Shown: piece by piece, positions 3,539-38,309 of the stretch | How the letters are laid out: each line of letters starts with the position of its first letter | How positions within the stretch are numbered: the first letter of the stretch is position 1 | DNA from: a virus | Direction: 5' to 3' (one strand) | Virus record (IMG/VR): IMGVR_UViG_3300037104_000186 | Coordinates: 1 to 39,838 of that record | Length of the DNA: 39,838 nucleotides | Made by a program: the position numbers and the translations under genes | The notes under the pieces: model-generated | What the model was told of the DNA's origin: nothing | Seen by the model: the letters and a program-made list of their open reading frames with translations, nothing else | Database searches by the model: none

Positions 3539-4878
3539 GGTTTGAAGTTGAGCGCGAAGCCGTTTTTCTGCGCGCACTCCAATTGCTTGCCCATGCGGCC
3601 GGCGCCGATGTCGGTGCGATAGAACGGTTTGGTGGGCATCCGCACCTTTTTGACGGCGGTGTAGGCGCTGCGCCGCGCCGCCTTGATGGTGTCGCCGCAG
3701 CCGGTGACCACGGCAACGTAGTCGCCGCAGCTCACGTAATGAGGAATTCTGATAGGCTGATCACCGACCTGTGCGAGGACATCATCGGCCAGCATCGCCT
3801 CACAGAGATGGACATGCTCAAGATCGGTAGCCCCGTATATTGGAATGTCGGAGACTTCCTTGTTCGTCATATGGCCATAGGGGAAGTCGCCGGTAACAAG
3901 CACCACCGAAACGCACGCTACATTTTCCTTTACGTGCAGGGTATCCCTGCCAAGCATGAGGTCGAGCATCCATTGCGCGGGGTCTCCGTCGTGCGTGGCA
4001 ATCTGATTGTGGAACGTCGGCCAACCCGGCCGCATCGTGTATTCAAAAGGGTAGAACCCGCCGTCGTCACTAATCATCCCTGCAATATCGATGAAGCCGA
4101 CATAGTCCAGCTTGCGCAAATGGGCTTCTATTGGTTTAAGAGCCACATCTGCCAGCTTGGATCTTTTCACGTACATGGACAGCGTACCCATCTCCCCTGT
4201 GTTTGGGCCAAGATCACCAACCATGAGCGGTTTGTATTCGAAGTTCTCGTAGAAGTACCGCGACCATCCGGCGGGCCCGAACCAACCACCTACGGCCATC
4301 TCACAGCCGGCGATCTTCTCCTGCAATATGAAACCGTGCTTACGCGCATCACTTCGGTACTTCGCATTCTTTTTCCAACGATCGAGCAGCATGTGCATGA
4401 GACTGGCCGCATCATCAGCGACGAATGACAGCGCCTTGTCGGCGTCGCCGCTGGGCTTGCTGACGAGGAACGTCGGATTTTTCTCGACGAAGCGCGCGGC
4501 ATCATCGTAGTCGCGGAATTCGATGCCGGGGATGATCTTGAGCCCGGCCGCCTTCATGGCCTTCTGGCCGACCGCGCGATCGAGCTCTAGTTCCGCCGCC
4601 TCTTTCGTCGGTCCGAAGATCGGATAGCCCTGCTCGAAATACGGCTGCAGGAAGTCGAGATAGGCGACGTTGTCGGGGAGCCAAATGAGGTCAGCCCAGT
4701 CCATGTAGCGCGGCACCATCTCCCACTTGACGAGCTTCGGCACGATGCCGCGACCGGACATGCGCTGTGTCCCATCCTTGCGCGGTCGGTCCCACCAGAT
4801 GACTTCGTGGCCGGCGAGCTGGCAGCGCATGGCGAAGTCGAGCGCATTGCTCGCCACGTCGAGAATCAGGATCCTCAT
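3535..4878 (-). CDS. PurD-like ATP-grasp ligase
   Basis: A 447-residue protein starting MRILILDVASNALDF. The start at 4878 overlaps the upstream stop (ATGA); the longer open frame above it is a shadow of the neighbour. It has the layout of phosphoribosylamine-glycine ligase: a Rossmann-like N domain (1-80), ATP-grasp core (about 88-310) with IFGPTKEAAELELDRA and DLGPNTGEMGT, and a C domain (about 320-425) with GCGDTIKAARRSAYTAVKKV and FYRTDIG. PurD joins glycine to phosphoribosylamine using ATP. Two sites differ from normal PurD as I know it: the usual VVVKADGLAAGKG loop reads FLVSKPSGDADKA (about 138-149), and the metal-binding EFNxRFGDPE segment reads FEYTMRPGWPT (278-288), keeping Glu279 but not the Asn. 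The substrate may therefore differ. No other purine gene is nearby; it sits among virion genes. Confidence 0.8.
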   Translation of the reverse strand: MRILILDVASNALDFAMRCQLAGHEVIWWDRPRKDGTQRMSGRGIVPKLVKWEMVPRYMDWADLIWLPDNVAYLDFLQPYFEQGYPIFGPTKEAAELELDRAVGQKAMKAAGLKIIPGIEFRDYDDAARFVEKNPTFLVSKPSGDADKALSFVADDAASLMHMLLDRWKKNAKYRSDARKHGFILQEKIAGCEMAVGGWFGPAGWSRYFYENFEYKPLMVGDLGPNTGEMGTLSMYVKRSKLADVALKPIEAHLRKLDYVGFIDIAGMISDDGGFYPFEYTMRPGWPTFHNQIATHDGDPAQWMLDLMLGRDTLHVKENVACVSVVLVTGDFPYGHMTNKEVSDIPIYGATDLEHVHLCEAMLADDVLAQVGDQPIRIPHYVSCGDYVAVVTGCGDTIKAARRSAYTAVKKVRMPTKPFYRTDIGAGRMGKQLECAQKNGFALNFKP

Positions 4879-6215
4879 TGCGGAGGCGGAGCGACGGCCT
4901 GCGCGGTAGTACCGACGCCAGCGATAGGCGGCAGCATCCCGAGAGAGGCGACGGCGGGCGGTGGCGCGGACGCCTTGTTGAGCATGCGCGCGACCAGCGA
5001 CTTGAATAGACCGCTGCGGTCGGCCATATAAGCAGCGAATTTTGACGGACTGGTCGTCAGCCATCCTAGCCCGGCAGGATTTTTGTTAGCTTCCATGAGC
5101 ACGCGACGTTCAACCATCGACAGCCCGTTGATCAGTTTCGACTCTGCGGCGTTGAGCGGGTGCACTTCGGGAACCGCTTTGGCGATTTCCTCTTTGAGCC
5201 CGCGCGCGAGCGTTTTCTGCGCTTCGATGTCGGCGCCTTTCAGTTCCCCGTAGGCTTTGCCGCCGATCGCCTTGTAGGTTCCCTGCTTGAGCATCTGCGC
5301 GTCCTGCACCGATATCTTGTCACCTTTGATGAGCGGATGGGCAAGGAACTCATCCCATGCCTTCTGTATCGAGCGAACGTCATCGAGCGGGGTCACCTGT
5401 TTCTCGAACTTGCTAACCGTCTCCTTGAGGCGTGAGGCGACAGCGTGCTTGTCAATCACGGCCGGCGAGTCTGCGATCGCAGTCGTTATTCGGTCGTTCA
5501 GGTCGCTGATTTTCCCGCGTAGCTTCTCAAGGCCGGTCGTATCGACGTTGATGCCTTCGTCGAGCATCGTATCGATGCCCTTGGCGGCCTTGCCCGATTT
5601 GAGGTCGGCGAGAGTGGGTTTTAGCGCGCTCTGCATCATGCCGCGCGCCCCGGACTTCAGCGCGCCGGATGCCGCCTCGCCGAGCGCCGGTGCCTTGATG
5701 CCGGCGAGCGCCGGCAATTGCTTGAACGCTTCGGCGGTGCCGTGGCCCAGCGCGCTACGGACCTCGCCAGAGCCGGGCGGCGCGACTACGCCGCCCAAGT
5801 AATCGCCAGCCTTGCCGATGCCGCGACCGACATAGCCCAGCGTGTCATCGATTCCCTTGCCGATGCGCCCCTTCGGCTGATAGTCGAGCGCATTCTGAAT
5901 GCCGGCCTTCACATCTTCCGGCGTCGATTTGATGAGTCCCGCAGCGTGCATGGGGATAGCGCCAAGCCCGGCTACATTGCCCAGCGCCGCGCCAGCCATC
6001 TTTCCGGCCATGCTCAACCCCGCCTCCGGCAGTCCGCCGTACATTTCGGACGCGCGCGAGAATGGGGTGTCGGACGGCGGGGGTGGCGTGGCGGCTTTCG
6101 GCGTGACTGGCGCAGCGGGTGCCGCATCCACCGGCTGCGCCGACGAAAGGTCGAATCCGCCGGACGAGCCGCTGTCAGGCTCGACGGGTTTCGCGGATGA
6201 GAGGTCGAAATCCAT
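4875..6215 (-). CDS. Putative internal virion / ejection protein
   Basis: A 446-residue protein. It begins with two copies of a nonapeptide-like element, FDLSSAKPV and FDLSSAQPV (residues 3-11 and 21-29), then a Pro/Ala-rich linker to about residue 50. A glycine/alanine-rich stretch with membrane-like helices (AGLSMAGKMAGAALGNVAGLGAIP) follows, and residues about 200-400 are long charged helices. The C-terminus is again Pro/Ala-rich. This composition and its position after tail and lysis genes fit internal core or DNA-ejection proteins of podoviruses, but I see no family signature. The start overlaps the upstream stop (TAATG at 6217-6213). Confidence 0.6.
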   Translation of the reverse strand: MDFDLSSAKPVEPDSGSSGGFDLSSAQPVDAAPAAPVTPKAATPPPPSDTPFSRASEMYGGLPEAGLSMAGKMAGAALGNVAGLGAIPMHAAGLIKSTPEDVKAGIQNALDYQPKGRIGKGIDDTLGYVGRGIGKAGDYLGGVVAPPGSGEVRSALGHGTAEAFKQLPALAGIKAPALGEAASGALKSGARGMMQSALKPTLADLKSGKAAKGIDTMLDEGINVDTTGLEKLRGKISDLNDRITTAIADSPAVIDKHAVASRLKETVSKFEKQVTPLDDVRSIQKAWDEFLAHPLIKGDKISVQDAQMLKQGTYKAIGGKAYGELKGADIEAQKTLARGLKEEIAKAVPEVHPLNAAESKLINGLSMVERRVLMEANKNPAGLGWLTTSPSKFAAYMADRSGLFKSLVARMLNKASAPPPAVASLGMLPPIAGVGTTAQAVAPPPQ

Positions 6216-7994: not shown

Positions 7995-8522
7995 CTAGAA
8001 CGCCTGCATCTTGTTCGACTGGGCGCTGGCGCCCGGCATCGCGTTCATCCACGATCCGGCGCCGCTGCCGGGGGTGGAGCCGCCGCTGCTGGCGAACTGG
8101 CCGCCCGGGACCGCGTTCGGGTCGAAGGACGCCGGTTTCGTGGTGGCGCCGAACCCGGGCGCGCCGGACGGGCCCATCTGCCCACCGCCGCCCATGATCT
8201 GCTGCATGATTTGTTGCAGCGCGGGGCCGCTCGGCATTCCGCCGCCACCGCCCGCGACCTGTTGCATCTGCTGCGGCGACATGCCGACGTTGGCTCCCGC
8301 GGGCATACCGCCCGGCGCTGGCGATGCGCCTGCGCTCAAGGGAATCACCGGGCCGGCGATCTGGCCCCCCGTCATCACACCGGGCTGCGCGGCACCCTGC
8401 TGCCCCTGTTGTTGCTGCTGGAACCATTGCTGCAACTGGGCCATGAAGTCGCCGCCCGCGCCGACCATCGATGACGGCATGGGGGTGCCGTACGGATTCA
8501 TCCCCTGATTCATATCCATCAT
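7995..8522 (-). CDS. Low-complexity Gly/Met/Gln-rich virion protein candidate
   Basis: A 175-residue protein starting MMDMNQGMNPYGTPMPSS. Almost all of it is Gly, Met, Gln, Ala and Pro, with a Gln tract (FQQQQQGQQG) near residue 35 and two QQIMQQIMGGGG-type elements. No fold can be inferred. The start at 8522 overlaps the upstream stop as ATGA, which selects the first of three nearby ATG codons. It sits between two other repetitive virion-type proteins and is probably co-translated with them. It may be structural or an assembly factor; nothing in the sequence decides this. Confidence 0.6.
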   Translation of the reverse strand: MMDMNQGMNPYGTPMPSSMVGAGGDFMAQLQQWFQQQQQGQQGAAQPGVMTGGQIAGPVIPLSAGASPAPGGMPAGANVGMSPQQMQQVAGGGGGMPSGPALQQIMQQIMGGGGQMGPSGAPGFGATTKPASFDPNAVPGGQFASSGGSTPGSGAGSWMNAMPGASAQSNKMQAF

Positions 8523-9505
8523 GTGCCGTACCCCGTTCCGTAGCCGCTGGAGTCGAAACTGCTACCGCCGTAGGTCGTCGACGGCCCGCCGCCACCGCCG
8601 CTGAATATGCCCTGCAACAGCGGTGAGTTGCCGAGCGTATTGAGGCCGCTGGTCAGGTTGTTGAGGCCGACCTGCCCCTGATTGAACGCATTGGTCCCGC
8701 CCTGCTGGCCGATCGTCAGGTATTGCCCCGTTTGATTCGATCCCTGCGTCAGCGGGTTGTAGATGCCGGTCTGCGCGAGGTTCGCTCCCGCCTGTCCAAG
8801 CTGGTATGGCGACATCGCGCCCTGGTTGAGCGTGTTGACGCCGCCCGTCAGGTCGTTGAAGCCCTGCGCATTCAACTGGCCGGCCGTGCCGGACGCACCC
8901 TGCAATCCGGCCACACCCTGCGCTTGGCGTTGCAATTGCTGGTTCTGCCAGTTGGTCAGGAAATTGGAGTCCGCCTGATTCGACAGCCCCGCCGCCTGCG
9001 CGCCCATGCCGATGCCACGCATCGAGGAATTCGCGTTCGCGGCATCAGCGACCTGCTGGCGCTGCTGGTTGAATAACGTGTGCTGCGGGTCAAGCGAGGT
9101 CTGATAAAGCTGGTTGCCGGCGTTCAGTAGGCCCTGCTGCGCGCCTTGCATGTTGCCCGCCTGATTGATGAGCGCGTTGCCGACGTTGGAGGTCGTCTGA
9201 CCGTTGTTGGCGAACATCCCGCCCGGCGCCGTCGCCTGCTCTGCCGCGGTGAGCGCGGCCTGCATGTTCCCACCGTTCGCCTTGAGCGCCTGCTGAAACT
9301 GCGTCATGAAGTTCTGGTAGTCGGTGTCCGCCGTCCCCTGCGCCTGCGGGACGTAGCCGGTCGAGCCGCCGCCGCCCCCACCGCCAGAACCGCCGCCGAG
9401 ACTGTTGGCGATTGAAAGCCCGCCGCCGACGATGCCGACGACAGAGGCGACCGTGCCGAGCGTGGGGAGCGTCAGGAAAGCGCGCAAGCGTTGGACGATG
9501 TTCAT
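8519..9505 (-). CDS. Virion protein with shared N-terminal leader
   Basis: A 328-residue protein starting MNIVQRLRAFLTLPTLG, one of the shared leader peptides found on at least seven proteins of this phage. A hydrophobic glycine-rich segment (VASVVGIVGGGLSIANSL, about residues 18-37) and a poly-Gly run follow. The remainder is a repetitive Asn/Gln/Gly/Leu protein with recurring LNQG, LTSG and NALINQAGN elements. It could be a membrane-penetrating internal protein like the smaller ejection proteins of podoviruses, because it has one membrane-like helix and sits next to the other internal-type proteins. That is inference from context. ATG 9505 overlaps the upstream TGA. Confidence 0.65.
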   Translation of the reverse strand: MNIVQRLRAFLTLPTLGTVASVVGIVGGGLSIANSLGGGSGGGGGGGSTGYVPQAQGTADTDYQNFMTQFQQALKANGGNMQAALTAAEQATAPGGMFANNGQTTSNVGNALINQAGNMQGAQQGLLNAGNQLYQTSLDPQHTLFNQQRQQVADAANANSSMRGIGMGAQAAGLSNQADSNFLTNWQNQQLQRQAQGVAGLQGASGTAGQLNAQGFNDLTGGVNTLNQGAMSPYQLGQAGANLAQTGIYNPLTQGSNQTGQYLTIGQQGGTNAFNQGQVGLNNLTSGLNTLGNSPLLQGIFSGGGGGPSTTYGGSSFDSSGYGTGYGT

Positions 9506-10563: not shown

Positions 10564-11016
10564 TCATTTGACTTCGGTTAACGCACTCAATACCAGAATC
10601 AGGTCCGGCGGAGTAATCTTGTTGGAAGTCGATGCGAGCGGGAATCGAAAATAGCCCGATTGTTGCAGGCCCGCAGCAACAAGTTCCGAGCAGAACCAGC
10701 TTTCCGGGTCGCTCCAGTCGCGCCCCAGCACGAACGCGAGGATCCCCTCGCAGTCGTACGGCTTCCCCAACTGGCTGTTGAGAAATGCGTAGTACGACGC
10801 CGTTATCGCATCGCTGCAGGGAATCGATATTTTCAAAGTTTCCTGCGTTCCCGTATACGCCGCATCCCTCACCCTCACGCCATCCGGAAGCCGCGATCCG
10901 AGCAGCGTCCCGTCGGGCATAACCGTATCGACGTGCGAGTAGCGCGGACCGCCGCCGTACCATTCGATCAATTGCGAGTCGAGGCCGGTGCCCTGTAGGA
11001 ATTGCAAGGTGATCAT
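10564..11016 (-). CDS. Permuted papain / NlpC-P60-like peptidase
   Basis: A 150-residue protein starting MITLQFLQGTGLDSQLIEW. Two motifs stand out: RYSHVD (His28) near the N-terminus and WFCSELV (Cys109) near the C-terminus. His before Cys is the circularly permuted order of the YaeF/YiiX-type NlpC/P60 superfamily, whose members cleave amide or ester bonds in peptidoglycan peptides or lipids. KPYDCEG (about 85-91) is also typical. It sits directly after the lysozyme gene, so an accessory role in cell-wall lysis is plausible. The start at 11016 overlaps the lysozyme stop (ATGA); longer frames are shadows. No signal peptide is visible, so export would need the holin. Confidence 0.7.
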   Translation of the reverse strand: MITLQFLQGTGLDSQLIEWYGGGPRYSHVDTVMPDGTLLGSRLPDGVRVRDAAYTGTQETLKISIPCSDAITASYYAFLNSQLGKPYDCEGILAFVLGRDWSDPESWFCSELVAAGLQQSGYFRFPLASTSNKITPPDLILVLSALTEVK

Positions 11017-11474
11017 GGGCGCCCACTGTAAACCCCGTAGTCGTACATGCGCAATTCCGCCGCGCGCCGATTCTTCAACCCGCCATCCTTGACGGCTCCG
11101 ACGTAGACCCATTGCGGGAACCAGGTATTCGCCGCTGTCTCCGCGTCGCCATCATTGATCATCGTCAGGAGGTGCGAGCCGCGAAACGCGTTGGCGCCCT
11201 CGTTGTAGGTGAAGCTCGTCAGCGCGTCATGCTGGCATTGCTCGATCTGCACGTTCACGCACTTGTCGACCACGGCGCTGAATTCGTCGACCTCATCGGT
11301 AAGCCACTGGTCGGCCTGCGCGGGCGTGCAGGTGTCGCCCATCTTGACATCGGCGGTGTGGCCGAAGCCGAGCGTCGGCGTGCCGCCACCGTCGCGGTAG
11401 GCCACGAGCGCCGGCAGTCCGCCGCGCCCTTCCCACCAGCGCATGAAGTCCATCAGGTCCGCGGTCACCGTCAT
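11013..11474 (-). CDS. GH24 (T4-type) lysozyme, endolysin
   Basis: A 153-residue protein starting MTVTADLMDFMRWWEGRGG. Glu15 in WWEG, Asp28 in AYRDGGG and Thr34 in TPTLGFGHT line up with the Glu-Asp-Thr triad of T4-type lysozymes; the Asp-to-Thr spacing of six matches T4. The LTSFTYNEGANAF segment (about 85-97) is the usual second conserved region. It would cleave the glycan backbone of peptidoglycan. There is no signal peptide or SAR helix, so release should depend on a holin. The start at 11474 overlaps the upstream stop (ATGA). Neighbours on both sides are lysis genes. Confidence 0.92.
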   Translation of the reverse strand: MTVTADLMDFMRWWEGRGGLPALVAYRDGGGTPTLGFGHTADVKMGDTCTPAQADQWLTDEVDEFSAVVDKCVNVQIEQCQHDALTSFTYNEGANAFRGSHLLTMINDGDAETAANTWFPQWVYVGAVKDGGLKNRRAAELRMYDYGVYSGRP

Positions 11475-15686: not shown

Positions 15687-16529
15687 TTAAACGGTGTACC
15701 AGCCGGAAAATGCGAAGTCCGAATTGTTCGCAAAATCCGTGTTCAGAAAATTGGAGACCGAAGACCCCGACGTGACGTGCAGCATCCCCGCCGTCGAGGT
15801 GCCGGTATTCATGCCTACGCTGTAGGTGCCGGTGAATGTGATGTTTTCGATGAAGCCTGAGGCACCGCCCGAATTCGCGCCGACACTCGCATTGGCGACA
15901 AACGGGAACCCCGTGATCGCAGCCGCCCCGGTGGACGACCCCTTGTTCGTCAACGCGATGAACAGCGTCCAGAACACGAGATTGGAAATCTTCACATAAC
16001 GCCCGAGCTGCGACGAGTAGGTGATGCCTACCGATGCGCCCCCGAATGTGAGTGCAGGCGTGAAATTTCCGAGCGCCGTTCCTTGCGCCGAGTTCACAAG
16101 CTCGTAGTTCGTTCCATTGTCCGAAATGTCGTAGATGCCGCCGGCGATGAATTCGCCACCCGTCAGCGCAGCCCCCGCCGAGGTCGTCACCGCGCGCGTG
16201 CCGAGTCCCGATGTGTTGATCGTTACCGCGCCCGTATTCGTGAATGCAGCAGGAAATCGATACGACTGGCCGGCGGTGTATCCCGCATTCGCAGGTGTCG
16301 GCGTCAGCGTGATTGCGTTCACCGATCCGCCCACCGACCCCGCCAATACGAAGATGAACCCGCTTTGCAGCGTATTGATGAGTGGCGGAACATTGCTGTT
16401 CACTTGTGATGCAATGAAGTTGAACAGCGTCATCACCGGTACCGCATCCTCTGGCTGACCATTGAGGATTTGCGTCGGGAACGTGCCGACGATCACCGGG
16501 AGTTGTAGAAAATTACGCAGTCGATTCAT
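15687..16529 (-). CDS. Tail fibre-type protein with shared leader
   Basis: A 280-residue protein starting MNRLRNFLQLPVIVGTF, a clear copy of the shared virion leader. It is followed by NGQPEDAVPVM and NFIASQVNSN, which match the N-terminal module of the S74 fibre next to it; that fibre has no leader. Residues about 60-150 contain a beta module (YTAGQSYRFPAAFTNTGAVTI). The C-terminal part (YVKISNLVFWTLFIAL, then GFPFVANASVG) resembles globular heads of tail fibres. It probably belongs to the tail adsorption apparatus. ATG 16529 follows the upstream stop by one base. Confidence 0.7.
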   Translation of the reverse strand: MNRLRNFLQLPVIVGTFPTQILNGQPEDAVPVMTLFNFIASQVNSNVPPLINTLQSGFIFVLAGSVGGSVNAITLTPTPANAGYTAGQSYRFPAAFTNTGAVTINTSGLGTRAVTTSAGAALTGGEFIAGGIYDISDNGTNYELVNSAQGTALGNFTPALTFGGASVGITYSSQLGRYVKISNLVFWTLFIALTNKGSSTGAAAITGFPFVANASVGANSGGASGFIENITFTGTYSVGMNTGTSTAGMLHVTSGSSVSNFLNTDFANNSDFAFSGWYTV

Positions 16530-20000: not shown

Positions 20001-21416
20001 TTAGGAAATGTCAGGCATCGTTCCGGCGTTGTAGCCCGCGCTGAATGCGCTCGACGATTCGAGCCTGACCAGAAACGCCTGGTTCAGGATGATCGAACCG
20101 TAGAACACCTTCCACGCCACCGACCGCGTCTGATTCAGCGGGTCCGACTTGTCGGCGCCGGTCAGGTAGAAAAACTCCGGGTTTTCCAGCAACACCTGTC
20201 CGTAGCTGTGGTTGGCGATAAAAATCGTCGGGAACACGGACACACCGGTCGCCGGCGCGGCAGGAGGTGTTTGGGACACGCCGATGCCGGTGAGCACGAC
20301 AGTCGCCCCCGACGGAAGCTGCGTCGCCATGCCGGCCAGCGGCCCAGTCGTCGGGCCCGAGGTCGTCACGCCGAGATTGACGGGCGATGCGCTCGTTCCG
20401 ATATAGACGCTGAACGTGTACCCCGGCTTGGATGGCAGCGTGACGGTTAGCGAGCCGGTCGGCCCGGTCACGCTCAAGTTGCCGGACACCTGATAAATCT
20501 GCTGCTCGACCGAGGTCTGCACCGGCGAGGCGGTGACCTGCACGTTGTACGTCGCCGACGTGGCGAGGTTGCCACCCGACGTCGACGGCGTGCCGGAGAC
20601 CAGCGCGTTTCCGACCCAGTACGGCATCATGTTCGTTTCGACTGAGCGCACACCGCCCCACTGACCGAGCTCGGCGTTGTACAGGCGATTCACGTCCGAG
20701 AACGCCCACGCGGTATTGATCTGCGCGTTCTCGCGCATGTCCATCGCGGCCAGCGGGTGAATCAGCGCCACGAAGTGCGGCGTCGACGCGGGCGACTTCG
20801 ACGGGTCGCGGTAGGCACCGGCCTCGATCATCATGTCCTCGCGCTCGTCACCGTCGAAGCGCGGCGCGCCGTACGTCGTCAGCGAACCGAAGATGCGGTT
20901 GTACTCGTGCGGCGAGCACACGTCCGTCGCCACCAGCAGGGCGCGCGAGGTGCGGCCGTTGGCATAGTTCACCTGATTGGCCGATAGCAGCGTGTTGAGC
21001 GTGTTTCGCTCGAGCGTTTCCGGCATCTGCAAGCCGATCAACTGAATGGCTTGCTGGAAAATCGGGTGCTTGATGGTCAGGTTCGCCACGTCGGAGACGA
21101 GCACGCGATCACCCCATTGCTGGGCGGTCGCCGAAACCTGCACCAGCGTGATCGCCTCGCCGAGAGGTGCGATGCCTTCCTGCAACGGCGCGAATGGCAG
21201 CGGGATGCGCTCGAAACGCGTCGCGGTATAAGTGACGCCGCGATTGACATCGAGGTGCAGCGGCTTGCCGAACTGATACGCGACGAGTTGCCGACGCGCG
21301 AGCGGTTCGACTTCCTCTTGAATGTAATTCTCGATGTCCGACTGGAACCCCGCACCTTGAGAGGTGTTCACGACGGGGAGCGTGAGGAACGCGAACAGCA
21401 GGTGCAGGAATTTCAT
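20001..21416 (-). CDS. Major capsid protein, N4-gp56-like, with leader and Ig-like insert
   Basis: A 471-residue protein. ATG 21416 is chosen because GGAG lies eight bases upstream and because it opens the shared leader (MKFLHLLFAFLTLPVVNTSQ). Residues about 24-275 match the N4-gp56 capsid pattern: helix DIENYIQEEVEPLARRQL, FGKPLHLDVNRG, LQEGIAPLGEAIT, QQWGDRVLVSDVANL. Residues about 280-392 are a Thr/Ser/Gly-rich beta domain absent from the core pattern, probably an Ig-like surface insert. Residues 395-471 return to the core fold. It builds the head shell. A putative scaffold lies just upstream, and a hairpin follows the stop. Confidence 0.88.
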   Translation of the reverse strand: MKFLHLLFAFLTLPVVNTSQGAGFQSDIENYIQEEVEPLARRQLVAYQFGKPLHLDVNRGVTYTATRFERIPLPFAPLQEGIAPLGEAITLVQVSATAQQWGDRVLVSDVANLTIKHPIFQQAIQLIGLQMPETLERNTLNTLLSANQVNYANGRTSRALLVATDVCSPHEYNRIFGSLTTYGAPRFDGDEREDMMIEAGAYRDPSKSPASTPHFVALIHPLAAMDMRENAQINTAWAFSDVNRLYNAELGQWGGVRSVETNMMPYWVGNALVSGTPSTSGGNLATSATYNVQVTASPVQTSVEQQIYQVSGNLSVTGPTGSLTVTLPSKPGYTFSVYIGTSASPVNLGVTTSGPTTGPLAGMATQLPSGATVVLTGIGVSQTPPAAPATGVSVFPTIFIANHSYGQVLLENPEFFYLTGADKSDPLNQTRSVAWKVFYGSIILNQAFLVRLESSSAFSAGYNAGTMPDIS

Positions 21417-21432: not shown

Positions 21433-22251
21433 TCAAAGGGGTACGTTTTCCAGCTTCGCGCGCAATTTGTCATGCGCTGACTGGGCTCCGCGGCGGGTAT
21501 CCGTGCGCGCCCCCGGAAGCGCGCCGCGGTCTACTTTTTGCGAGCCATCCGCCGCCGGCGCCCGCTTCGTGCTTTTCGTTTTCACCTTGCCGTCCATGAT
21601 GTCCTGTCCGATGAGGAGCCGCAGGATCGCACCGCGCGGTGCGTTCTGGCCGGCCTGACGTGTTTGGGCGAGCGCCTGCTCGACCCGCTTTTCGTACCGC
21701 TTGAACACCTTGGGGTTGGTCACCTCGAGGCGCTGGAATGTGGTGAGATCGCGCATGTCATCCATCGTACGCAGTGCCGCCTGTGAGGCGTTCGTGGCCT
21801 GCCGCGTTGCGCGCTGCTGATTGACGTACCACTGCGCTTGCTTGAATGCGTCCGCATCGCCATTCTTGCGAACGTTCTCCAAATAGGCGTTTTCTTCCTC
21901 GACCTGCGGATCAATGAGGGTGCGCGGATCCGCTGGCGGCTGATTGCGCCTCGCTGCGGCGCGTTCGATCTCCAGCTCGCGTTCGGCGCGTTCCGCGCGC
22001 TCGCGTTCGCGCTTGACGGCCGGCGCAACCGGTTTTCGCGTGGCGAGTTCGCCGTCATCCCCCTCCAGACTCGTATTCTCGAGCAGGTCGTCGAGGGTGC
22101 CATCGTCATCACCACCCTCGTCCTGATCGCCTTCCGCATCCTCGCCGTCGGCTGCGTCGACGCCTTCCGGCGGATCATCGCCTTCGCTCTCGTCGCCGAC
22201 GGCGCATAGTGCTAGGAAGGCAAGGAGCAGGTGAAGGTATCGCTCGATCAT
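21433..22251 (-). CDS. Putative scaffolding protein with shared leader
   Basis: A 272-residue protein. It begins with a leader-like peptide, MIERYLHLLLAFLALCAVGD, the most hydrophobic copy. A strongly acidic region follows (about 20-70, Asp/Glu/Gly), then long charged helices: REREREAERAERELEIER-like runs around 85-100 and KRYEKRVEQALAQTRQ near 185-200. The C-terminus is basic (KVKTKSTKRAPAADG, HDKLRAKLENVPL). Acidic helical proteins encoded directly before the major capsid protein are normally scaffolds that guide procapsid assembly and bind the shell through a basic C-terminus. An AAGGAC ribosome site precedes ATG 22251. Confidence 0.75.
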   Translation of the reverse strand: MIERYLHLLLAFLALCAVGDESEGDDPPEGVDAADGEDAEGDQDEGGDDDGTLDDLLENTSLEGDDGELATRKPVAPAVKRERERAERAERELEIERAAARRNQPPADPRTLIDPQVEEENAYLENVRKNGDADAFKQAQWYVNQQRATRQATNASQAALRTMDDMRDLTTFQRLEVTNPKVFKRYEKRVEQALAQTRQAGQNAPRGAILRLLIGQDIMDGKVKTKSTKRAPAADGSQKVDRGALPGARTDTRRGAQSAHDKLRAKLENVPL

Positions 22252-22273: not shown

Positions 22274-22780
22274 TTACAGGCCAGCCGTGCCGATGTTCAG
22301 CATGGTGACGGTCGCCGCGCCCGGATTCACGGACACAAGGAACGTGCGCGCGGTATTGGTGGCGATCGTGTTGTTGCCGAGCACGGTGACGCCAGTGCCG
22401 CCGGTCAGCGTCGTCGTCTGTCCCGTCCCGTCGTTGATGATGGTCAGAGGTAAATTGAAGCCAATGGATGGCATGGTCGAAGGGCAGGCGGCGATGATCT
22501 GCGCCGCCGTCGGCGTGGTCAGGGCGAGCACACCCGACCCCGACAGGTCGATGTAGTTGTTGAAGAATTGAGCGCCCGTCAGCGTCAGCGTTGTCGCCGC
22601 CCCGTAGGCGATGGCGACCATGTCGTAGTCGATCGCATCGATGTTGGCCTGCAATGCGCTCATACCGAACAGCGCGGCCGTGTCCGGGACCATGCCCGGC
22701 GTGACATTGACGAGCGAGCCTTGAAGGCTCGTTGTCGTGACGACCGGCAGTTGCAGGAATCGAAGGAGGCGCTTCAGCAT
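22274..22780 (-). CDS. Head decoration-type protein with shared leader (1)
   Basis: A 168-residue protein starting MLKRLLRFLQLPVVTTTSLQ, the best example of the shared leader. After it comes VTPGMVPDTAALFGM, a helical turn, and a beta domain with TLTGGTGVTVLGNNTIATNT and RTFLVSV, a pattern I associate with small head-decoration or fibrous surface proteins of phages. The larger neighbour at 22790-23602 has a similar plan. A perfect GGAG ribosome site lies seven bases before ATG 22780, suggesting strong independent translation. The virion location is inferred from the cluster. Confidence 0.65.
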   Translation of the reverse strand: MLKRLLRFLQLPVVTTTSLQGSLVNVTPGMVPDTAALFGMSALQANIDAIDYDMVAIAYGAATTLTLTGAQFFNNYIDLSGSGVLALTTPTAAQIIAACPSTMPSIGFNLPLTIINDGTGQTTTLTGGTGVTVLGNNTIATNTARTFLVSVNPGAATVTMLNIGTAGL

Positions 22781-22789
22781 GACCGCTCC

Positions 22790-23602
22790 TTAGACGACCG
22801 CGGCCGACGACGCCATGGCGGTGATGTTGAGCGTCGGCGAGTACAGCCCCGGCAGACCCGGCGTGTACGCGGAAGTCGGAACGGTGATCGTGCCGGGAAC
22901 CGTGCCGGCGGTCGCCGTCCACGCGGTACCGGCGGCAGGGGCCGCGATCACGAACGAGGTCGCCGAGGTCACCTTGTTGATCGGATACCAGCCCGACGGC
23001 AGCGTGCCCGTTGTGACGGTCAGGAAAAACGCCTGTCCGACGACGGGCACCAGCGCATTGGTGCCGAGCGCCACCGTGTAGTTGTTCGTGGTGCCGACCT
23101 GCGTCAACGAGGTGAACGTCGTGCCGACCGTCATCGGCGCGCCCACGGTCGTCGACAGTTGCGTGATCTGCCCCTGATACGTGCGCACGTTGCCGGCGAC
23201 GATCGAGGTCGTGCCGACCAGCGTGACCACCGTATCGGACAGCGTCGGCGTGGCAACGGTGCCCGCGCCCGACGAGAAAACGGAGAACTGGAACGTCTGG
23301 CCGGTGTAGGCGCTCGGCATCGTCGCAACGATGTTGTAGGCCGAGTCGATCGTCACGACGACCGCGCCACCGTTGGTGAGCTTCTGGAAAAGCTGCTGAA
23401 GCGCGGTGAGCGTGATCGCCGCGCCTGCGCTTGATTGGAAATTGTCCTGATTCGCGGCCTGCTGGTAGGCGATTTGATTCGACAGGGTGCCGATGAACGA
23501 GGGTCCGTCCACCGATCCGCCATTGAGTTGCAGACTTGTCGCCAGGCTCGGCAGCGGCACGCCAGCGGGAAGGGTCAGGAATTCCTTGAACAGGTTTTTC
23601 AT
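22790..23602 (-). CDS. Head decoration-type protein with shared leader (2)
   Basis: A 270-residue protein. ATG 23602 (GGAG eight bases upstream) is preferred to the longer frame, because it opens MKNLFKEFLTLPAGVPLPSL, a copy of the shared leader. Residues 30-85 are helical (IAYQQAANQDNFQSSAG, LTALQQLFQKLTNGG). From about 85 the protein is beta-rich Thr/Val/Gly, with TVVTLVGTTSIVAGNVRTY echoing the decoration domain of the smaller neighbour. It is probably a surface or accessory head protein. No catalytic motif is visible. Confidence 0.65.
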   Translation of the reverse strand: MKNLFKEFLTLPAGVPLPSLATSLQLNGGSVDGPSFIGTLSNQIAYQQAANQDNFQSSAGAAITLTALQQLFQKLTNGGAVVVTIDSAYNIVATMPSAYTGQTFQFSVFSSGAGTVATPTLSDTVVTLVGTTSIVAGNVRTYQGQITQLSTTVGAPMTVGTTFTSLTQVGTTNNYTVALGTNALVPVVGQAFFLTVTTGTLPSGWYPINKVTSATSFVIAAPAAGTAWTATAGTVPGTITVPTSAYTPGLPGLYSPTLNITAMASSAAVV

Positions 23603-23673: not shown

Positions 23674-24192
23674 TTATCGGGCCCGCCTTGCCCTCAACGT
23701 TCCGTACGCACTGATGGTCGAAAGGGTGAACGTATCATTCGCCACCAGGAAAACCGTCGTCGTGGCGGCGATCGAAAGCCGCACGGGACCGATGTCCGTC
23801 GTCACCAATCCGCCAAAGACTGTCGCCGGGTAGTTGTCCACCGCCAGCGGGTCGGTGCCGAGTCCGGCGCCACCTGCCTGCGTCGGCAGCGTGCCGGTCG
23901 TCAGCGAGATCGCCGCCGTCAGGTTCGTCACACTGGTCGTCGCCGCGATGTTGTGATCGACCACCGCGGCGATGTCCCAATCGCCCGCCGTCAGGCTGAT
24001 CGAGGTGACGTTAGAGGTGACCGTCGAGGTGAGCGGGACCGCCGAACCGACCGCTACGGTCGCGGTAACGAACTCGCCGACGACGCCGGCGGCCGCGTTG
24101 TCATTGGTCGCGGTGCCCTTGACCTGACTCGAATTGATCGATCCGGTACCCTGCGCAACGCCGGGGCTGAGTGTCTGGATGTCGCCGGTCAT
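23674..24192 (-). CDS. Jelly-roll surface protein (C1q-like fold type)
   Basis: A 172-residue Thr/Val/Ala-rich protein. Motifs GEFVTATVAVGSAVPLTS, SNVTSISLTAGDWDIAAVV and VRLSIAATTTVFLVANDTF followed by STISAYGTLRARRAR match a jelly-roll domain often found at the ends of phage fibres or as stand-alone decoration proteins. It has no leader peptide. It probably trimerises on the virion surface. The start overlaps the upstream stop (ATGA, 24192-24189). About 70 bp without a gene separates it from the next gene, containing a TTGACA on the leftward strand (23659-23654) but no convincing -10. Confidence 0.65.
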   Translation of the reverse strand: MTGDIQTLSPGVAQGTGSINSSQVKGTATNDNAAAGVVGEFVTATVAVGSAVPLTSTVTSNVTSISLTAGDWDIAAVVDHNIAATTSVTNLTAAISLTTGTLPTQAGGAGLGTDPLAVDNYPATVFGGLVTTDIGPVRLSIAATTTVFLVANDTFTLSTISAYGTLRARRAR

Positions 24193-24536
24193 GGCGCGTA
24201 GTAGCTGACGTCCAGCGTGCCGGTAGCGCCCACCTGGATGAACCGGAGCGCCTTGAAGTCGCCGACGTAGTCGAGCTCTCCGCCCACAGGGATCGTCATT
24301 CCGACGCCAGCGGTCGGCGCAACCCCATCATCGCGCCAGCGCACCGCTGCCGAACCACTGTTCTGAATCACGACATAGCCGACGTTGTATCCGGCGATCA
24401 CCGCCGGTAACGTAAGCGCCGTCGAGGATGTGAGCACCGTGATCTGCTGATAGCCCAGCGGTCGACGAATGCCGGTGACGGTGGCCTGATTGGCGACGAC
24501 GCTGAGAGCGAGAAACCTAAGCAGCCTGAAGTTCAT
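24189..24536 (-). CDS. Small virion protein with shared leader
   Basis: A 115-residue protein starting MNFRLLRFLALSVVANQ, the shared leader with Pro replaced by Ser. The body is one small beta domain: ITVLTSSTALTLPA, YVVIQNSGSAAVRWRDDG, IPVGGELDYVGDFKALRF. This pattern is common in short phage head or tail proteins of unknown role. The gene starts 20 bp inside the preceding metallopeptidase gene, in a different frame. Its position between metallopeptidase and capsid genes makes it a candidate protease substrate through the leader. Confidence 0.65.
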   Translation of the reverse strand: MNFRLLRFLALSVVANQATVTGIRRPLGYQQITVLTSSTALTLPAVIAGYNVGYVVIQNSGSAAVRWRDDGVAPTAGVGMTIPVGGELDYVGDFKALRFIQVGATGTLDVSYYAP

Positions 24537-24990
24537 ACAGCTTCTCCATCACTACGCGCAAAATGCGCGCGGCGCGCTCATCGGGGTCCGGGTGAAATTC
24601 ACTTTTCGTTCCGTACTTGCGCAAGAATTGCACGAACTCTAATCCGTATCCGCGCTTGGCTGCAAATAAATCTGCTGCAAATTCATGCTCACGCGCCCGC
24701 GAGCGCGCCCATGCCGTCCAGAACATCGGCACCACCAGCAGCCGTTGTTCCATGTGAAACATTTTGCAGTGCGCGTACTCGTGCAGCAGCACCGCCTGCT
24801 GCTGGTGACGATCGAGGTTGAACCACATGTCGCCGACCGCGATGCGTTTCCACCGGAATAGACCGATCGCCTGCGCCATGCCCACTTTGGGCCGATACAC
24901 CAGTGGCACGCCGAGGAATGTTTCGCCCGGCATCAGGTATTGAATCCCGCCCATCGGCGGACGCTCGTTCCACTGAATGCCGCGCCTCAC
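24517..24990 (-). CDS. M48-like zinc metallopeptidase, candidate head maturation protease
   Basis: A 157-residue protein taking GTG 24990, which overlaps the portal stop as GTGA; the long frame above is a shadow of the portal. The zinc motif is HEYAH (70-74), with the third ligand in EFAAD (103-107) and a late FHPDPDER (132-139). HExxH, ExxAD and a late HP-x-x-x-R are the order seen in M48 peptidases. A hydrophobic stretch (LLVVPMFWTAW, 84-94) follows the zinc motif. There is no signal peptide. It lies directly after the portal, where head maturation proteases are usually encoded, although those are normally serine-type. It could cut scaffold or the shared leaders, but a host-directed role is also possible. 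Confidence 0.75.
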   Translation of the reverse strand: MRRGIQWNERPPMGGIQYLMPGETFLGVPLVYRPKVGMAQAIGLFRWKRIAVGDMWFNLDRHQQQAVLLHEYAHCKMFHMEQRLLVVPMFWTAWARSRAREHEFAADLFAAKRGYGLEFVQFLRKYGTKSEFHPDPDERAARILRVVMEKLYELQAA

Positions 24991-27149
24991 CCGCGCGCTC
25001 CCGCCGATCCATCCTGGACTTGATCGGTATGTATCGCGCCCGGCGGCTGCTGGCCGCCCGGACGCTGCGGCCCCGGCATCGCACCCGGCCGCGGCGCGCC
25101 GGCAACGCCGGGGCCTGCACCGCCCGGCGCGCCCGGCTGACCGGGCTGCGGTTGCTGCGCCGCCATCTGCATCTCGCGCTTTTTCTGCATCTGCTGCATG
25201 TGGCCGGCCATGTGGGTCTTGTACAGGCCCGTCGGGTCGCCATTGGTGGCCGCCGCCTTCATGTGCGACTGGATGTGTTCGGGGTCGTTGTCCGCTTCGT
25301 GCGTTTTCACCTCGAACCCGTTGTGCATCATCTCGTTCTCGACATCGGGCTCGATGGTGAACATATTGCGGTTGTCGACGAGGATCTTCGGCGCCAGTTC
25401 CGGCCCGAACATGGATTCGGTGCCCGCCTCGATGATGGGCGTCACGTCGAGCGACTTGCCGTTCATCTGCGCCGGCGGGATGCCCTTGAGCACATTCATC
25501 CACGCGATCTGTTGCTGCATGCGCTGCACGCCCGCTTGGAATTCGGTCCCGCACCAGCGGAAGAAATAACGGTTCTCCCATTCCTGCACCGGGATCGTTT
25601 TCAAGGCCGCTTTCACGCCGATCTCGCCGCGCGACTCGACCATCAATTCCTTCGTCCGAAACTGCTGATCGAGCTCGAACAGAAATTCCATGAGCGGGTT
25701 GAGCATCACGTCCTCGTATCTCGAGGCGTGATCGATGATGTTGATCTGCTGTTCCTGCTGCATCGCGCCAAGTTGCCCGGCGTTCTTCCGCCCCTGCGGC
25801 ATCTTGCCCATCATCGCCTCATTGACGTCCATCGATTCCCATATCTGTCGCTTGATGGTGTCGCACATCGCCGCCGCGTCCTTCCACAACTGCGGCTGCG
25901 TGATCGACTTGACCCCCGTCGGCGCGACCGGCCACACCGCGGCGAGTCCGATCGTGAGCTGCGACCATTGCGGTGTCGCCAGCGGGTCGACGGCGAACAC
26001 CGGCAGCAATGAGTACATTGCCGAGTCCTGCCCCATGTTCCAGAAGTCGGTCAGTTGCCATTGCAGGAACTTGACCGGCTCGATCTTCGATTTGCCGAAA
26101 AAGCTGCCTTCCATCTGCTCGACCGGCGCCGACAGCACGGGAACCTTGGCGCTCCACAGCGGATTCTTGATGAGCCCGACGATCTCCGACGGGCTCGAAT
26201 AGAACACGATCGCCGATTCCTTGTGCTCACCGCCAAGATCCAAGTGCTCGTAGGCCATGTAGATGACGGCGTGCTTGTAGGTGCCTTCCGTTTTCACGCC
26301 GGCATCGGAGGTCTGCTTCTTCGCGGGATTGCGCTTGTCCTTCGACTTATCGGGCTCGCAGAATTGATCGATGTCCGAGCCCTTCGGCAGGATGAACACG
26401 CCCTCGTCCTCGAGCTCGCGCACCTTGTCGGGCGACAGGCGCAGGCGGATCACGACCGCCTTGGCCTTCTGCAAATCCGTGCAGGTGGGCGGGATCACGA
26501 CCAAGTCCTCGGTCGCAAACGGCACGATCTCCGGTCCTTCCTCGATGATCTTTTCTTCCTCGGTATCCTCGTACTCATCGGTCGGGTCCTCCATCTCCAT
26601 GTCGGACACGTCCTCGCCGTCGATTTCGGTGATTTTCGGGTTTTTCTTGATGAGCCGCGTCAGGTAGCGCGTGGACTTCGTCCAGTCGATCATCAGGTTC
26701 CATTGCCCCGTCACGTCGCCCGCGATGAGGTCGGTGCGGCAAATGGACTTGAGATTGAGCTTGCGGATGTAGTAGGTCAGCAGCGCCAACTGGTCGTTGG
26801 GCGGCTCGCCGTCGGTGCCGAGCCCGTCGACGTACTTGTTGTTGGCAGGAAAAAGCTGCTTTAGCGCGCGCTTGGCGCGGGCATGGATGGCGTCGCGGAC
26901 GGCGGGGATGTAGCCCTGCGAGTTACCGGCATATTGCTGGTTCTCATCCGGATTGGCGTTATAGATGTCCCAATACTCTGAAATCGCGTCCGACTGTTCT
27001 TCCTTATTCTCGAACGCCTTCTGAATCGTCTTATACAGCTTCAGCGCAGCGACGTGCGCCTTCGATTCAGGCTTGTCCGCCCAATTTTTCTGTGGGTCGG
27101 CGAGCGTGTCCTGAGTCGCGCTCGGCGGCTCCTTTTTTTTCTTCGCCAC
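24987..27149 (-). CDS. Portal protein
   Basis: A 720-residue protein starting at GTG 27149 (MAKKKKEPPSAT...). Size and features fit podovirus portals: a helical N-terminus, SEYWDIYNANPDENQQY, a VFYSSPSEIVGL and VPVLSAPVEQMEGSFFG core, and then long helices ending in EHIQSHMKAAATNGD. An acidic insert lies near 185-205 (EDTEEEKIIEEGPE). The last 60 residues are Gln/Pro/Gly-rich and probably disordered. It would form the dodecameric ring for DNA entry and the tail joint. The next gene, the metallopeptidase, starts in a GTGA overlap. Confidence 0.88.
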   Translation of the reverse strand: MAKKKKEPPSATQDTLADPQKNWADKPESKAHVAALKLYKTIQKAFENKEEQSDAISEYWDIYNANPDENQQYAGNSQGYIPAVRDAIHARAKRALKQLFPANNKYVDGLGTDGEPPNDQLALLTYYIRKLNLKSICRTDLIAGDVTGQWNLMIDWTKSTRYLTRLIKKNPKITEIDGEDVSDMEMEDPTDEYEDTEEEKIIEEGPEIVPFATEDLVVIPPTCTDLQKAKAVVIRLRLSPDKVRELEDEGVFILPKGSDIDQFCEPDKSKDKRNPAKKQTSDAGVKTEGTYKHAVIYMAYEHLDLGGEHKESAIVFYSSPSEIVGLIKNPLWSAKVPVLSAPVEQMEGSFFGKSKIEPVKFLQWQLTDFWNMGQDSAMYSLLPVFAVDPLATPQWSQLTIGLAAVWPVAPTGVKSITQPQLWKDAAAMCDTIKRQIWESMDVNEAMMGKMPQGRKNAGQLGAMQQEQQINIIDHASRYEDVMLNPLMEFLFELDQQFRTKELMVESRGEIGVKAALKTIPVQEWENRYFFRWCGTEFQAGVQRMQQQIAWMNVLKGIPPAQMNGKSLDVTPIIEAGTESMFGPELAPKILVDNRNMFTIEPDVENEMMHNGFEVKTHEADNDPEHIQSHMKAAATNGDPTGLYKTHMAGHMQQMQKKREMQMAAQQPQPGQPGAPGGAGPGVAGAPRPGAMPGPQRPGGQQPPGAIHTDQVQDGSAGARG

Positions 27150-27541: not shown

Positions 27542-29569
27542 TCAAGCGCGCGAACGCGGATTGGCAGAAACGTACTCGATGCCCTGCGGGTTGCGCGAGA
27601 CGTTGGCGCCGGCCGGGATGCCGAAAGTCTCACCGACGCGGTCCACCATCGCGATCGTGCATTCGATCGCCTCGGCGATGAGTCGCGAGACGCCCTGTTC
27701 GGGTTCCTGCCCGCGCGCGGTGGCAGCGCGCTCGGCCGGCAGCGCATACCCCGCCGACAGGGCATTGAGCGTCAGCGGCGCGTTGCGGTCGACGCTCAAC
27801 AGGCGATGGTTGTGCCAGACGGTGCGGATGCGGTCGGACAGGCACCCGCGGGCGACGGCTTCGTGTTCGCCACGGTAGGGGTGCAGCTTTTCGACGCGCA
27901 GGGCGGGGACGAGGGCGATGCGCTGCCACTGGTCATATACTCCGGCAGGCACGTACACGGTGACGGGATTGCGCGGCCACGTGGCGCGAACCTCATGTGC
28001 CAATGTGCGGATGCAGTCGGATACAGGACCGGACACGCTCCAGTCGCGAGCCACACAAAAACGGCGTTGCGCTCGCACGATCCCAACGCATACCGCCTCT
28101 GAAGGACTCGCATTGAAGGCCACATAGACCTCCTCCCCTCGGTTGGGCTCCGGCGCGTCCTCGACGTTGGCGCCGGAAAAATCCTCGTAAACGGGCAATC
28201 CAGCGAACATGCGCAGACTGTACGCCAGCGCATTCATGACGTCACGCGTCCCGCTCGGGAAGTTGCACCATTCGGCGACGAGCTCGGGGTGCGCCGCCTT
28301 GCCGCCGATCAGCACCACGTCCTTGGCGATGGCGAACGGCTGCAGCCCCATGATGAAGTCCTCCTTCGACCGGTCCTGCGGGGCGTTGAGCGCCACAATC
28401 GGCAGCGCCACCCCGCGGCGCAGCATCTCGATGCGGATCGGCTGCAGCAGCCAGTCGTCGAGCGAATTCTTTTCCACCCCGATCTTCGCCGGACGGTGCT
28501 TTTCATTGCAGGCAAAGATGTCGGCCAGGAACTCGTCCGGCTTCATGTACGTCCCGCTCGACTCGTGGACGAGGATGCGGCTACCCATGCGGGAAACGAC
28601 GACCTTGCCGAAGCGATCGCTGCGCTGTTGCGTGCGGGTGCGCTCGCGGTTGCTGGTGCGGGCGGGATCGTAGATCGCGAATCGCGGCATCCACGACCAC
28701 GGCGACAGGTCGGCCGATGAGAGCCATTCCTCCTTGAACGGCTTGGACGCCGCGTCGACGACCTCGAGCATGTAACTCTGCTTGAATTCGCCCAGCATCC
28801 CCGCCGCCTGGTAGCGGTCGCGCTCGGCGCGGATCCACGCCATCGGGTAGCGCGCCGGCCAGTTCGACTTGGTCGTCGGCGCGTCGACATCGCCGTCGCA
28901 GATGGGCACGCCCATGTAAACCCATTCCCGCGAGGCGGCGAAGCGGGTCACCATGCAGTCCTCCGCGCGGCGCGTCTGCCCGTAGCGGATGCGCCGGCGC
29001 GTCTTGTCCATCGCCGGCACGAGCTCCAGCCAGAACTTGCGCATCGAGGCGTCCACCGCCGCGGCGTCGCGGACGCGCTCCTGATTCTCGACGTCGTCCA
29101 GATAGGCTCCGTCCGGCCGCGAGTCGTGGTATTTAAAGGATTGGAGCTCCTGCTCCCACCCCCACGCCTCGATCATGGCGCCTGACTTGAACCAGACGCG
29201 GTTTTCGATGGATTTGCGGGCGAGCACCTCGCCACCAAAGAGATTACGCAGCTTGACGTTGGTGCGCGCTTCCTTATCAATCGCCTCCAGACGCTGGCAC
29301 GCCTTGCTGTAGGTCTCGCCGATCAATAGCTGATAGCGGAAGTTGCCGAAGGACCCCTCGAGCAACAGGTGCTCTTCTGCCACCGTCGTCTTGGCACCCT
29401 CACGATAAACCTCGAACAGGACGAATTCTGACGCTGAGCGCCAGATGTCCATCATCTTGACGTGATAGTCGGCACTGTCCTGCGGGTGCCGATGTGCAAA
29501 CAACATCGCTGCGGCGAGCGCCCGGTCCTCCGAGACCCGCCACAGCAGGTTGTGATCGAGTTCAGCCAA
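27542..29569 (-). CDS. Terminase large subunit with extra C-terminal domain
   Basis: A 675-residue packaging motor protein. ATPase: Walker A-like REGAKTT (56-62) and Walker B-like AYLDDVEN (155-162). Nuclease (RNase H-like): Asp301 in FAIYDPARTS, Glu366 in IGVEKNSLDDW and Asp443 in GTRDVMNALAY. These two domains end near residue 460. About 200 more residues follow, starting VYVAFNASPSEAVCVGIV and ending before a helical IAEAIECTIAMVDRV; the spacing looks like a second, degenerate RNase H-like fold. The start is TTG 29569, directly behind two in-frame stops (TGA TGA TTG) and three bases after the upstream gene. It would drive ATP-dependent DNA packaging through the portal. Confidence 0.9.
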   Translation of the reverse strand: MAELDHNLLWRVSEDRALAAAMLFAHRHPQDSADYHVKMMDIWRSASEFVLFEVYREGAKTTVAEEHLLLEGSFGNFRYQLLIGETYSKACQRLEAIDKEARTNVKLRNLFGGEVLARKSIENRVWFKSGAMIEAWGWEQELQSFKYHDSRPDGAYLDDVENQERVRDAAAVDASMRKFWLELVPAMDKTRRRIRYGQTRRAEDCMVTRFAASREWVYMGVPICDGDVDAPTTKSNWPARYPMAWIRAERDRYQAAGMLGEFKQSYMLEVVDAASKPFKEEWLSSADLSPWSWMPRFAIYDPARTSNRERTRTQQRSDRFGKVVVSRMGSRILVHESSGTYMKPDEFLADIFACNEKHRPAKIGVEKNSLDDWLLQPIRIEMLRRGVALPIVALNAPQDRSKEDFIMGLQPFAIAKDVVLIGGKAAHPELVAEWCNFPSGTRDVMNALAYSLRMFAGLPVYEDFSGANVEDAPEPNRGEEVYVAFNASPSEAVCVGIVRAQRRFCVARDWSVSGPVSDCIRTLAHEVRATWPRNPVTVYVPAGVYDQWQRIALVPALRVEKLHPYRGEHEAVARGCLSDRIRTVWHNHRLLSVDRNAPLTLNALSAGYALPAERAATARGQEPEQGVSRLIAEAIECTIAMVDRVGETFGIPAGANVSRNPQGIEYVSANPRSRA

Positions 29570-37727: not shown

Positions 37728-38309
37728 ATGACCATCGAAATTAAGCATCGCATTAGCGGGAAAGTGTTGTTTACGACGGTGGCTGAGACGTTGCGCGACG
37801 CGGACCTGCGCGACGCGGACCTGAGCTACGCGGACCTGCGCGGCACGGACCTGCGCGGCGCGAACCTGCGCGGCGCGGACCTGAGCTACGCGGACCTGCG
37901 CGGCGCGAACCTGCGCGGCGCGGACCTGAGCTACGCGGACCTGCGCGGCGCGGACCTGAGCGGCGCGTACCTGCGCGGCGCGTACCTGAGCGGCGCGGAC
38001 CTGAGCTACGCGGACCTGCGCGACATTCCCGTCATCCCCAACATCGACGCGGCGATCCTTGCCGCAATCGAGGCTGGTGGGAAACTGGACATGGACAATT
38101 TGCACACATGCGAAACGACGCATTGCCGTGCCGGATGGGCGATCGCGCTGGCGGGTGAAGCGGGCAAGGCGCTCGAAAGGAAAGTTGGCCCGAACGCTGC
38201 GGGAGCATTGATCTACACAGCAAGTCGGCCGGGGATGCGCGTGCCGGAATTCATGGCGTCTGATGAAGATGCGATGGCGGACCTGCGTGCTTGTGCTGCT
38301 AATGGATAA
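37728..38309 (+). CDS. Pentapeptide-repeat protein
   Basis: A 193-residue protein, ATG 37728. Residues 1-20 ([20 protein letters not shown]) form a small beta module found before many phage pentapeptide proteins. Residues about 24-100 hold about 15 pentapeptides of the type A-D/N-L-x-x ([15 protein letters not shown]), expected to form a right-handed quadrilateral beta helix. Residues 101-193 are a separate domain with [20 protein letters not shown] and [12 protein letters not shown], known behind such repeats. Pentapeptide proteins can mimic DNA and inhibit gyrase, but that role is not shown for this type. The repeats are almost identical at the DNA level. Confidence 0.85.
37796..38023 (+). 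repeat. 15-bp tandem repeat coding for pentapeptides
   Basis: About 15 copies of a 15-bp unit close to GCGGACCTGCGCGGC, in frame, with a higher-order 45-bp pattern ([15 protein letters not shown]). Synonymous positions hardly vary (GAC CTG in nearly every unit), pointing to recent expansion or frequent homogenisation. Its complement gives a false leftward frame. Confidence 0.9.

Follow-up and report, generated by a model that had tools for sequence, protein, structure and literature searches.

A zinc metallopeptidase of the M48 type as the probable head maturation protease of a tailed-phage lineage with a shared N-terminal leader

Among phage head proteases, those that are well studied and of established function are serine-type enzymes. 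In the viral DNA analysed here (IMG/VR record IMGVR_UViG_3300037104_000186, the whole stretch of 39,838 nucleotides, hereafter the window), the gene that adjoins the portal gene carries the motifs of a zinc metallopeptidase. The locus raises the question of whether this enzyme matures the head, and whether a leader found at the start of other proteins of the window is its substrate. The gene and its predicted zinc site are as follows.

24517..24990, minus strand: M48-type zinc metallopeptidase, proposed head maturation protease (157 aa, GTG start)
24769..24783, minus strand: HEYAH, residues 70-74, with two of the zinc ligands plus the catalytic Glu (H70, E71 and H74 invariant in the 39-sequence alignment)
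24670..24684, minus strand: EFAAD, residues 103-107, third zinc ligand, the Glu of the ExxxD motif (E103 and D107 invariant)
24574..24597, minus strand: FHPDPDER, residues 132-139, M48-type HP....R motif (P134 invariant, R139 nearly invariant)

All three motifs were found just where a sequence-only reading of this DNA had put them, and its suggestion of an M48-like protein was borne out by profile search, motifs and structure prediction. The window peptidase matched Pfam PF01435 (Peptidase_M48) with 26.5 bits, the curated cut-off being 20.3, and 36 of 39 family members matched the same profile (E <= 1). The homologues in the 39-sequence alignment are 26-38% identical to the window protein, and H70, E71, H74, R83, E103, D107, G114 and P134 are invariant among them; since the zinc-site residues are kept at this distance, the M48 match goes beyond chance. 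HExxH was intact in all 50 homologues listed. Searched against the PDB, the family profile found Ste24p (E 7.5e-10) and ZMPSTE24 as the best matches, followed by HtpX, proabylysin and BlaR1. The AF2 model of the window peptidase reached a pLDDT of 90.5, and Foldseek again placed Ste24p/ZMPSTE24 first (prob 1.00), with a modest E against the PDB (4e-3) and a TM of ~0.5. As judged from zinc site and predicted fold, the window protein is confirmed as M48-like, a predicted zinc metallopeptidase. Its gene is under purifying selection, with dN/dS of ~0.03-0.2 for the peptidase genes of close pairs (close prophages).

The family, ~115-175 aa in size, was found in Paraburkholderia prophages and in many environmental viral contigs. 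Its members share the HExxH...ExxxD core with Ste24p/ZMPSTE24, HtpX and the minigluzincins (proabylysin, MJ1213/projannalysin), which gave the best fold and profile matches, but they differ from these in their small size and in their place in a head module. The multi-span membrane domain of the M48A/B (Ste24, HtpX) subfamilies is absent from the 157-aa window peptidase, which has only one short hydrophobic stretch, between the HExxH helix and the Glu helix. Pfam and PHROG scans of the peptidase and other window proteins gave no match to a serine-protease domain (S78 HK97-like, T4 gp21-like or ClpP-like), and Pfam scans of 20 window proteins detected no other peptidase. The window peptidase had no clear functional PHROGs family.

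When phage records, viral contigs and PDB chains were searched with the single sequence of the window peptidase, no relative was found, and the portal was therefore used as bait to fetch ~230 related loci. The window portal yielded 66 IMG/VR loci (portal 34-67% identity), most of them with a small HExxH protein encoded after the portal. Three divergent portal relatives, L066, L072 and L073, have scaffold and capsid homologues in direct succession and no M48; their portals served as second bait and gave 79 further loci. A third, capsid-anchored sample comprised 80 loci and overlaps with the first in some of its contigs. In the phage collection we found no isolated member of the M48-bearing clade, and 148 genomes of the genus Paraburkholderia contained only the three prophages already known.

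The window genes around the peptidase were assigned as follows.

27542..29569, minus strand: terminase large subunit (phrog_38, 1.1e-27)
24987..27149, minus strand: portal protein, 720 aa (phrog_1216 portal, 7.4e-11), stop overlapping the peptidase start
24189..24536, minus strand: leader-bearing small protein, MNFRLLRFLALSVV, start overlapping the 3' end of the peptidase gene
22790..23602, minus strand: leader-bearing head-module protein, MKNLFKEFLTLP followed by AGVPLP; leader-bearing homologues in M48-bearing loci
22274..22780, minus strand: leader-bearing head-module protein, MLKRLLRFLQLP followed by VVTTTS; weak phrog_673 head scaffolding match (1.5e-5), homologues with leaders
21433..22251, minus strand: scaffold-like protein, leader MIERYLHLLLAFLALCA and then an acidic region; sits before the capsid, leader-bearing homologues in 46 M48-bearing loci
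20001..21416, minus strand: major capsid protein (phrog_1357 major head protein, 1.9e-31), leader MKFLHLLFAFLTLP followed by VVNTS
21375..21416, minus strand: capsid leader, 14 aa, predicted propeptide with predicted cut between P14 and V15; precedes the start point of M48-less relatives
15687..16529, minus strand: tail-like protein (phrog_4900 tail protein, 5e-7), leader MNRLRNFLQLP followed by VIVGTFP
8519..9505, minus strand: Gly-rich protein, leader MNIVQRLRAFLTLPTLG / MNIVQRLRAFLTLP, no family match

For the capsid, ATG 21416 (MKFLHLL...) is very probably the true start, and not the upstream ATG 21473. A search of the PDB with the capsid profile gave no significant match, and the AF2 model of the capsid was of low confidence (55.9) and was left unused. 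Judging by its leader, the Gly-rich protein is possibly an internal (ejected) virion protein.

We found that the peptidase start and the portal stop overlap as GTGA in the window, which agrees with the coupling proposed before, and that the same kind of overlap occurs in many relatives. In all 46 loci (window included) where homology search detected a scaffold homologue, the peptidase gene lies between portal and scaffold, in some close to the portal and in others immediately ahead of the scaffold, so that its assignment to the slot of the head maturation protease held across the sample. In the M48-less relatives, which have similar portal, scaffold and capsid genes, an M48 gene was present in 0 of the 83 loci examined.

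The distribution of the capsid leader follows that of the enzyme. In the portal-anchored sample, a hydrophobic N-terminal leader was found on the capsid of 48/48 M48-bearing phages and was absent in 58/58 M48-less relatives; these counts include near-copies, the distinct bodies in the tree being 43 for the M48-bearing and 49 for the M48-less side. In the capsid-anchored sample the leader was present in 80/80 loci, 56 of which contain M48, the remaining 24 being loci without a portal in view; M48 was present wherever portal and scaffold were in view. Each of the 80 capsids has a start that lies 23 or more residues upstream of the anchor. An automatic hydropathy flag had called some of them leader-less, which inspection showed to be wrong, their endings being of the FPGVTN or LGVVN type. 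Phages with the leader and without a peptidase, named beforehand as the case that would count against the proposal, were looked for in these samples and none was found.

One alternative makes the peptidase an accessory gene directed at the host, such as a factor for takeover or exclusion, and many phage metallopeptidases, such as the ImmA/IrrE types, are indeed regulatory. We regard this reading as barely credible, in view of the constant place between portal and scaffold (46/46 loci) and of the exact match between M48 and the capsid leader.

The capsids of the two groups meet at one point. The start of nearly all M48-less capsids lies 11-13 residues ahead of the anchor Asp, most often as M-[AP]-[TVI]-N (MATN..., MAGN... 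and MTTAVN... in L066, L072 and L073), and the leaders of M48-bearing capsids end in PGVTN, LGVVN, LPVVN or similar, so that M-ATN in the one group stands against ...PG-VTN in the other. Across this split the capsid bodies share roughly 53-63% identity, with an invariant Asn in VTN/ATN. Since the M48-less capsids align from the leader end, a cut after the leader would leave the same capsid N-terminus that M48-less phages reach by starting there.

On this evidence we consider it very likely that the zinc M48-type enzyme is the head maturation protease of this tailed-phage lineage and would remove the shared leader as a propeptide. The leader on capsid, scaffold and other virion proteins would gather them inside the procapsid, much as the capsid targeting sequence (CTS) of T4 does; the M48 enzyme would then cut just past the leader, before V-T-N in the capsid, and the mature capsid would keep the N-terminus that protease-less relatives get by translation start. 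What we infer in this scheme is the proteolytic activity, the cut site, the timing and the role of the leader in targeting. The M48-less sister phages presumably assemble without cleavage, by analogy with P22.

The leader is not confined to the capsid. The head genes that follow the peptidase had been described as leader-bearing, and we found the same leader type at the start of seven window ORFs. It spans ~10-25 residues, with a basic start, a hydrophobic or amphipathic part and an end of the form [P/L]-[G/P/A/R]-[V/I/L]. The leader codons differ synonymously between the window ORFs while the residues are kept; because the differences are synonymous, selection acts on the leader peptide, and a DNA repeat or regulatory element was ruled out on the same ground. 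The leader had at first seemed rare in relatives, an error due to too narrow a motif.

The scaffolds of M48-bearing loci carry the leader, whereas M48-less scaffolds mostly start in the acidic region. About nine M48-less scaffolds (L066, L089, L110, L117, L123, L131, L134, L146 and L153) have a different short basic/hydrophobic N-terminus, which often ends in FAP; their capsids are leader-less where seen. The third, and often the fourth, head-module protein is also leader-bearing in M48-bearing loci. When a leader PSSM was run on all other ORFs at score 12, there were 24 matches among 910 ORFs in M48-bearing loci and 4 among 1037 in M48-less ones, and the top M48-less matches resemble membrane or signal-peptide starts. 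The tail-like protein bears the leader in the window and in a few relatives, L060 among them, while most relatives start with MSIIGTLP or similar. The leader on this non-head protein may have been gained or lost as a module.

The hydrophobic character and basic start of the leaders also suit a membrane-linked variant of the main explanation, in which the leader would take the proteins to the inner membrane, assembly would proceed there, and M48 would cut the anchor and free the particles. Ste24/ZMPSTE24, the nearest relatives of solved structure, are membrane enzymes, and the hydrophobic stretch between the enzyme's HExxH and Glu helices is kept. Several leaders, however, are short and amphipathic (MIEFLRLGV, MNRLRNFLQLP), and we hold this variant to be improbable, if worth keeping in mind. 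It is very improbable that a host enzyme such as signal peptidase removes the leader and M48 is a passenger. The leaders look superficially like signal peptides, but signal-peptide cut sites obey the A-x-A rule or contain a lipobox, and FPG/VTN, LTLP/VVN and LSP/ALTN (the slash marking the predicted cut) fit neither; the joint gain with M48 and the conserved active site would also be left unexplained.

If one trans-acting factor reads the leader end, the ends should agree within a genome, and this was seen. They vary between genomes and agree within them: FPGV/FPGV/FPAV in L020, LLPGI/LLPGI/VLPGI in L047, YLSPA/YLSPF/FISPK in L039 and FPRV/FPQV/YPAI in L056. For capsid and scaffold the observed covariation of leader ends was 17.1, against 14.1 in within-lineage shuffles (0/20000), and for capsid and third protein it was 14.8, against 12.9 in shuffles (85/20000). 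A reversed-sequence control was not significant. The leader strings and lineage groups of this test were compiled by hand, a weak point of the analysis. Such covariation is what a common trans-acting factor reading the leader end would produce. G, P, A, R and K all occur at P1 of the predicted cut, a loose pattern for a protease site.

These results bear on a further reading, in which the leader is a permanent assembly helix and M48 acts elsewhere in the head module, for example in scaffold degradation or quality control. Leaders do look like amphipathic or signal-like helices, and the cut is a predicted one. Against a permanent helix stand the leader end, common to the proteins of one genome and covarying among them, the M48-less capsids that begin where the leader ends, and the joint gain of leader and M48; we therefore judge it quite improbable, and removal of the leader by M48 is the reading carried on here.

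In a tree of 92 capsid bodies the M48-bearing phages form a single, fully supported clade, which midpoint rooting places within the M48-less phages. A more distant record, MW202637, has a leader-less capsid start and no protease annotated near the head genes. Most simply, enzyme and leader would have been gained together once and never lost separately in this sample. Because the M48-bearing capsids form one clade, the co-occurrences of enzyme and leader count as one event and not as dozens; the within-genome covariation is independent support. It is fairly probable that a lineage without head proteolysis gained a complete system of proteolytic maturation in one step, with the M48 enzyme and a portable N-terminal tag on capsid, scaffold and other virion proteins, and with a cut motif that drifts in concert among the substrates.

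The proposed system resembles known ones in its logic. Every prohead protease studied removes an N-terminal propeptide of the capsid protein (PMC7411985), and in T4 and SPN3US the head protease cuts N-terminal propeptides, the T4 CTS taking proteins into the head (PMC9958956, PMC7411985). T4 gp21 with the CTS and SPN3US gp245 match the proposed system in that short N-terminal propeptides are cut from capsid, core and internal proteins (PMC9958956; PMC7411985), but these proteases are serine-type with cut motifs of their own, in contrast to the zinc M48 enzyme and the hydrophobic leader, typically ending in [P/L]-G-V, described here. Sister phages such as L066, L072 and L073 have homologous portal, scaffold and capsid, but neither the portal-scaffold peptidase nor the capsid leader.

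The claim that a zinc enzyme in this role would be a new type stands with one qualification. No M48 head protease was found in the open literature; a metalloprotease, the Spartan-like gp46 of Vibrio phage XM1, has been suggested as a prohead protease in one sentence and without a test (PMC10457771). The likeness ends there, since the homology of gp46 is to Spartan and not to M48, and the passage concerned mentions no shared leader (PMC10457771). What is proposed here is a known function with a new enzyme class and a new leader.

If this is true, the head maturation step is open to an unrelated enzyme class, and proteolytic maturation can arise where a lineage had been without it. The sister phages, having neither enzyme nor leader, would be a natural control, so that the contribution of cleavage to head assembly could be tested between close capsid relatives. 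As a portable tag, the leader may also help to load proteins into a small phage head, and a function is suggested for a gene family that is unnamed in the phage library searched.

Three other window genes were observed. The gene at 3535-5064 (minus strand) is of the ATP-grasp type; its matches to the PurD-like (GARS) A and C domains fall just under the Pfam cut-offs, and its product possibly acts in nucleotide or peptide ligation. The 182-aa protein at 10564-11112 (minus strand) matched phrog_1128 (1.1e-18), annotated as enoyl-CoA hydratase-like, a label that may not fit it. An ORF at 37728-38309 (plus strand) has pentapeptide-like repeats in its translation.
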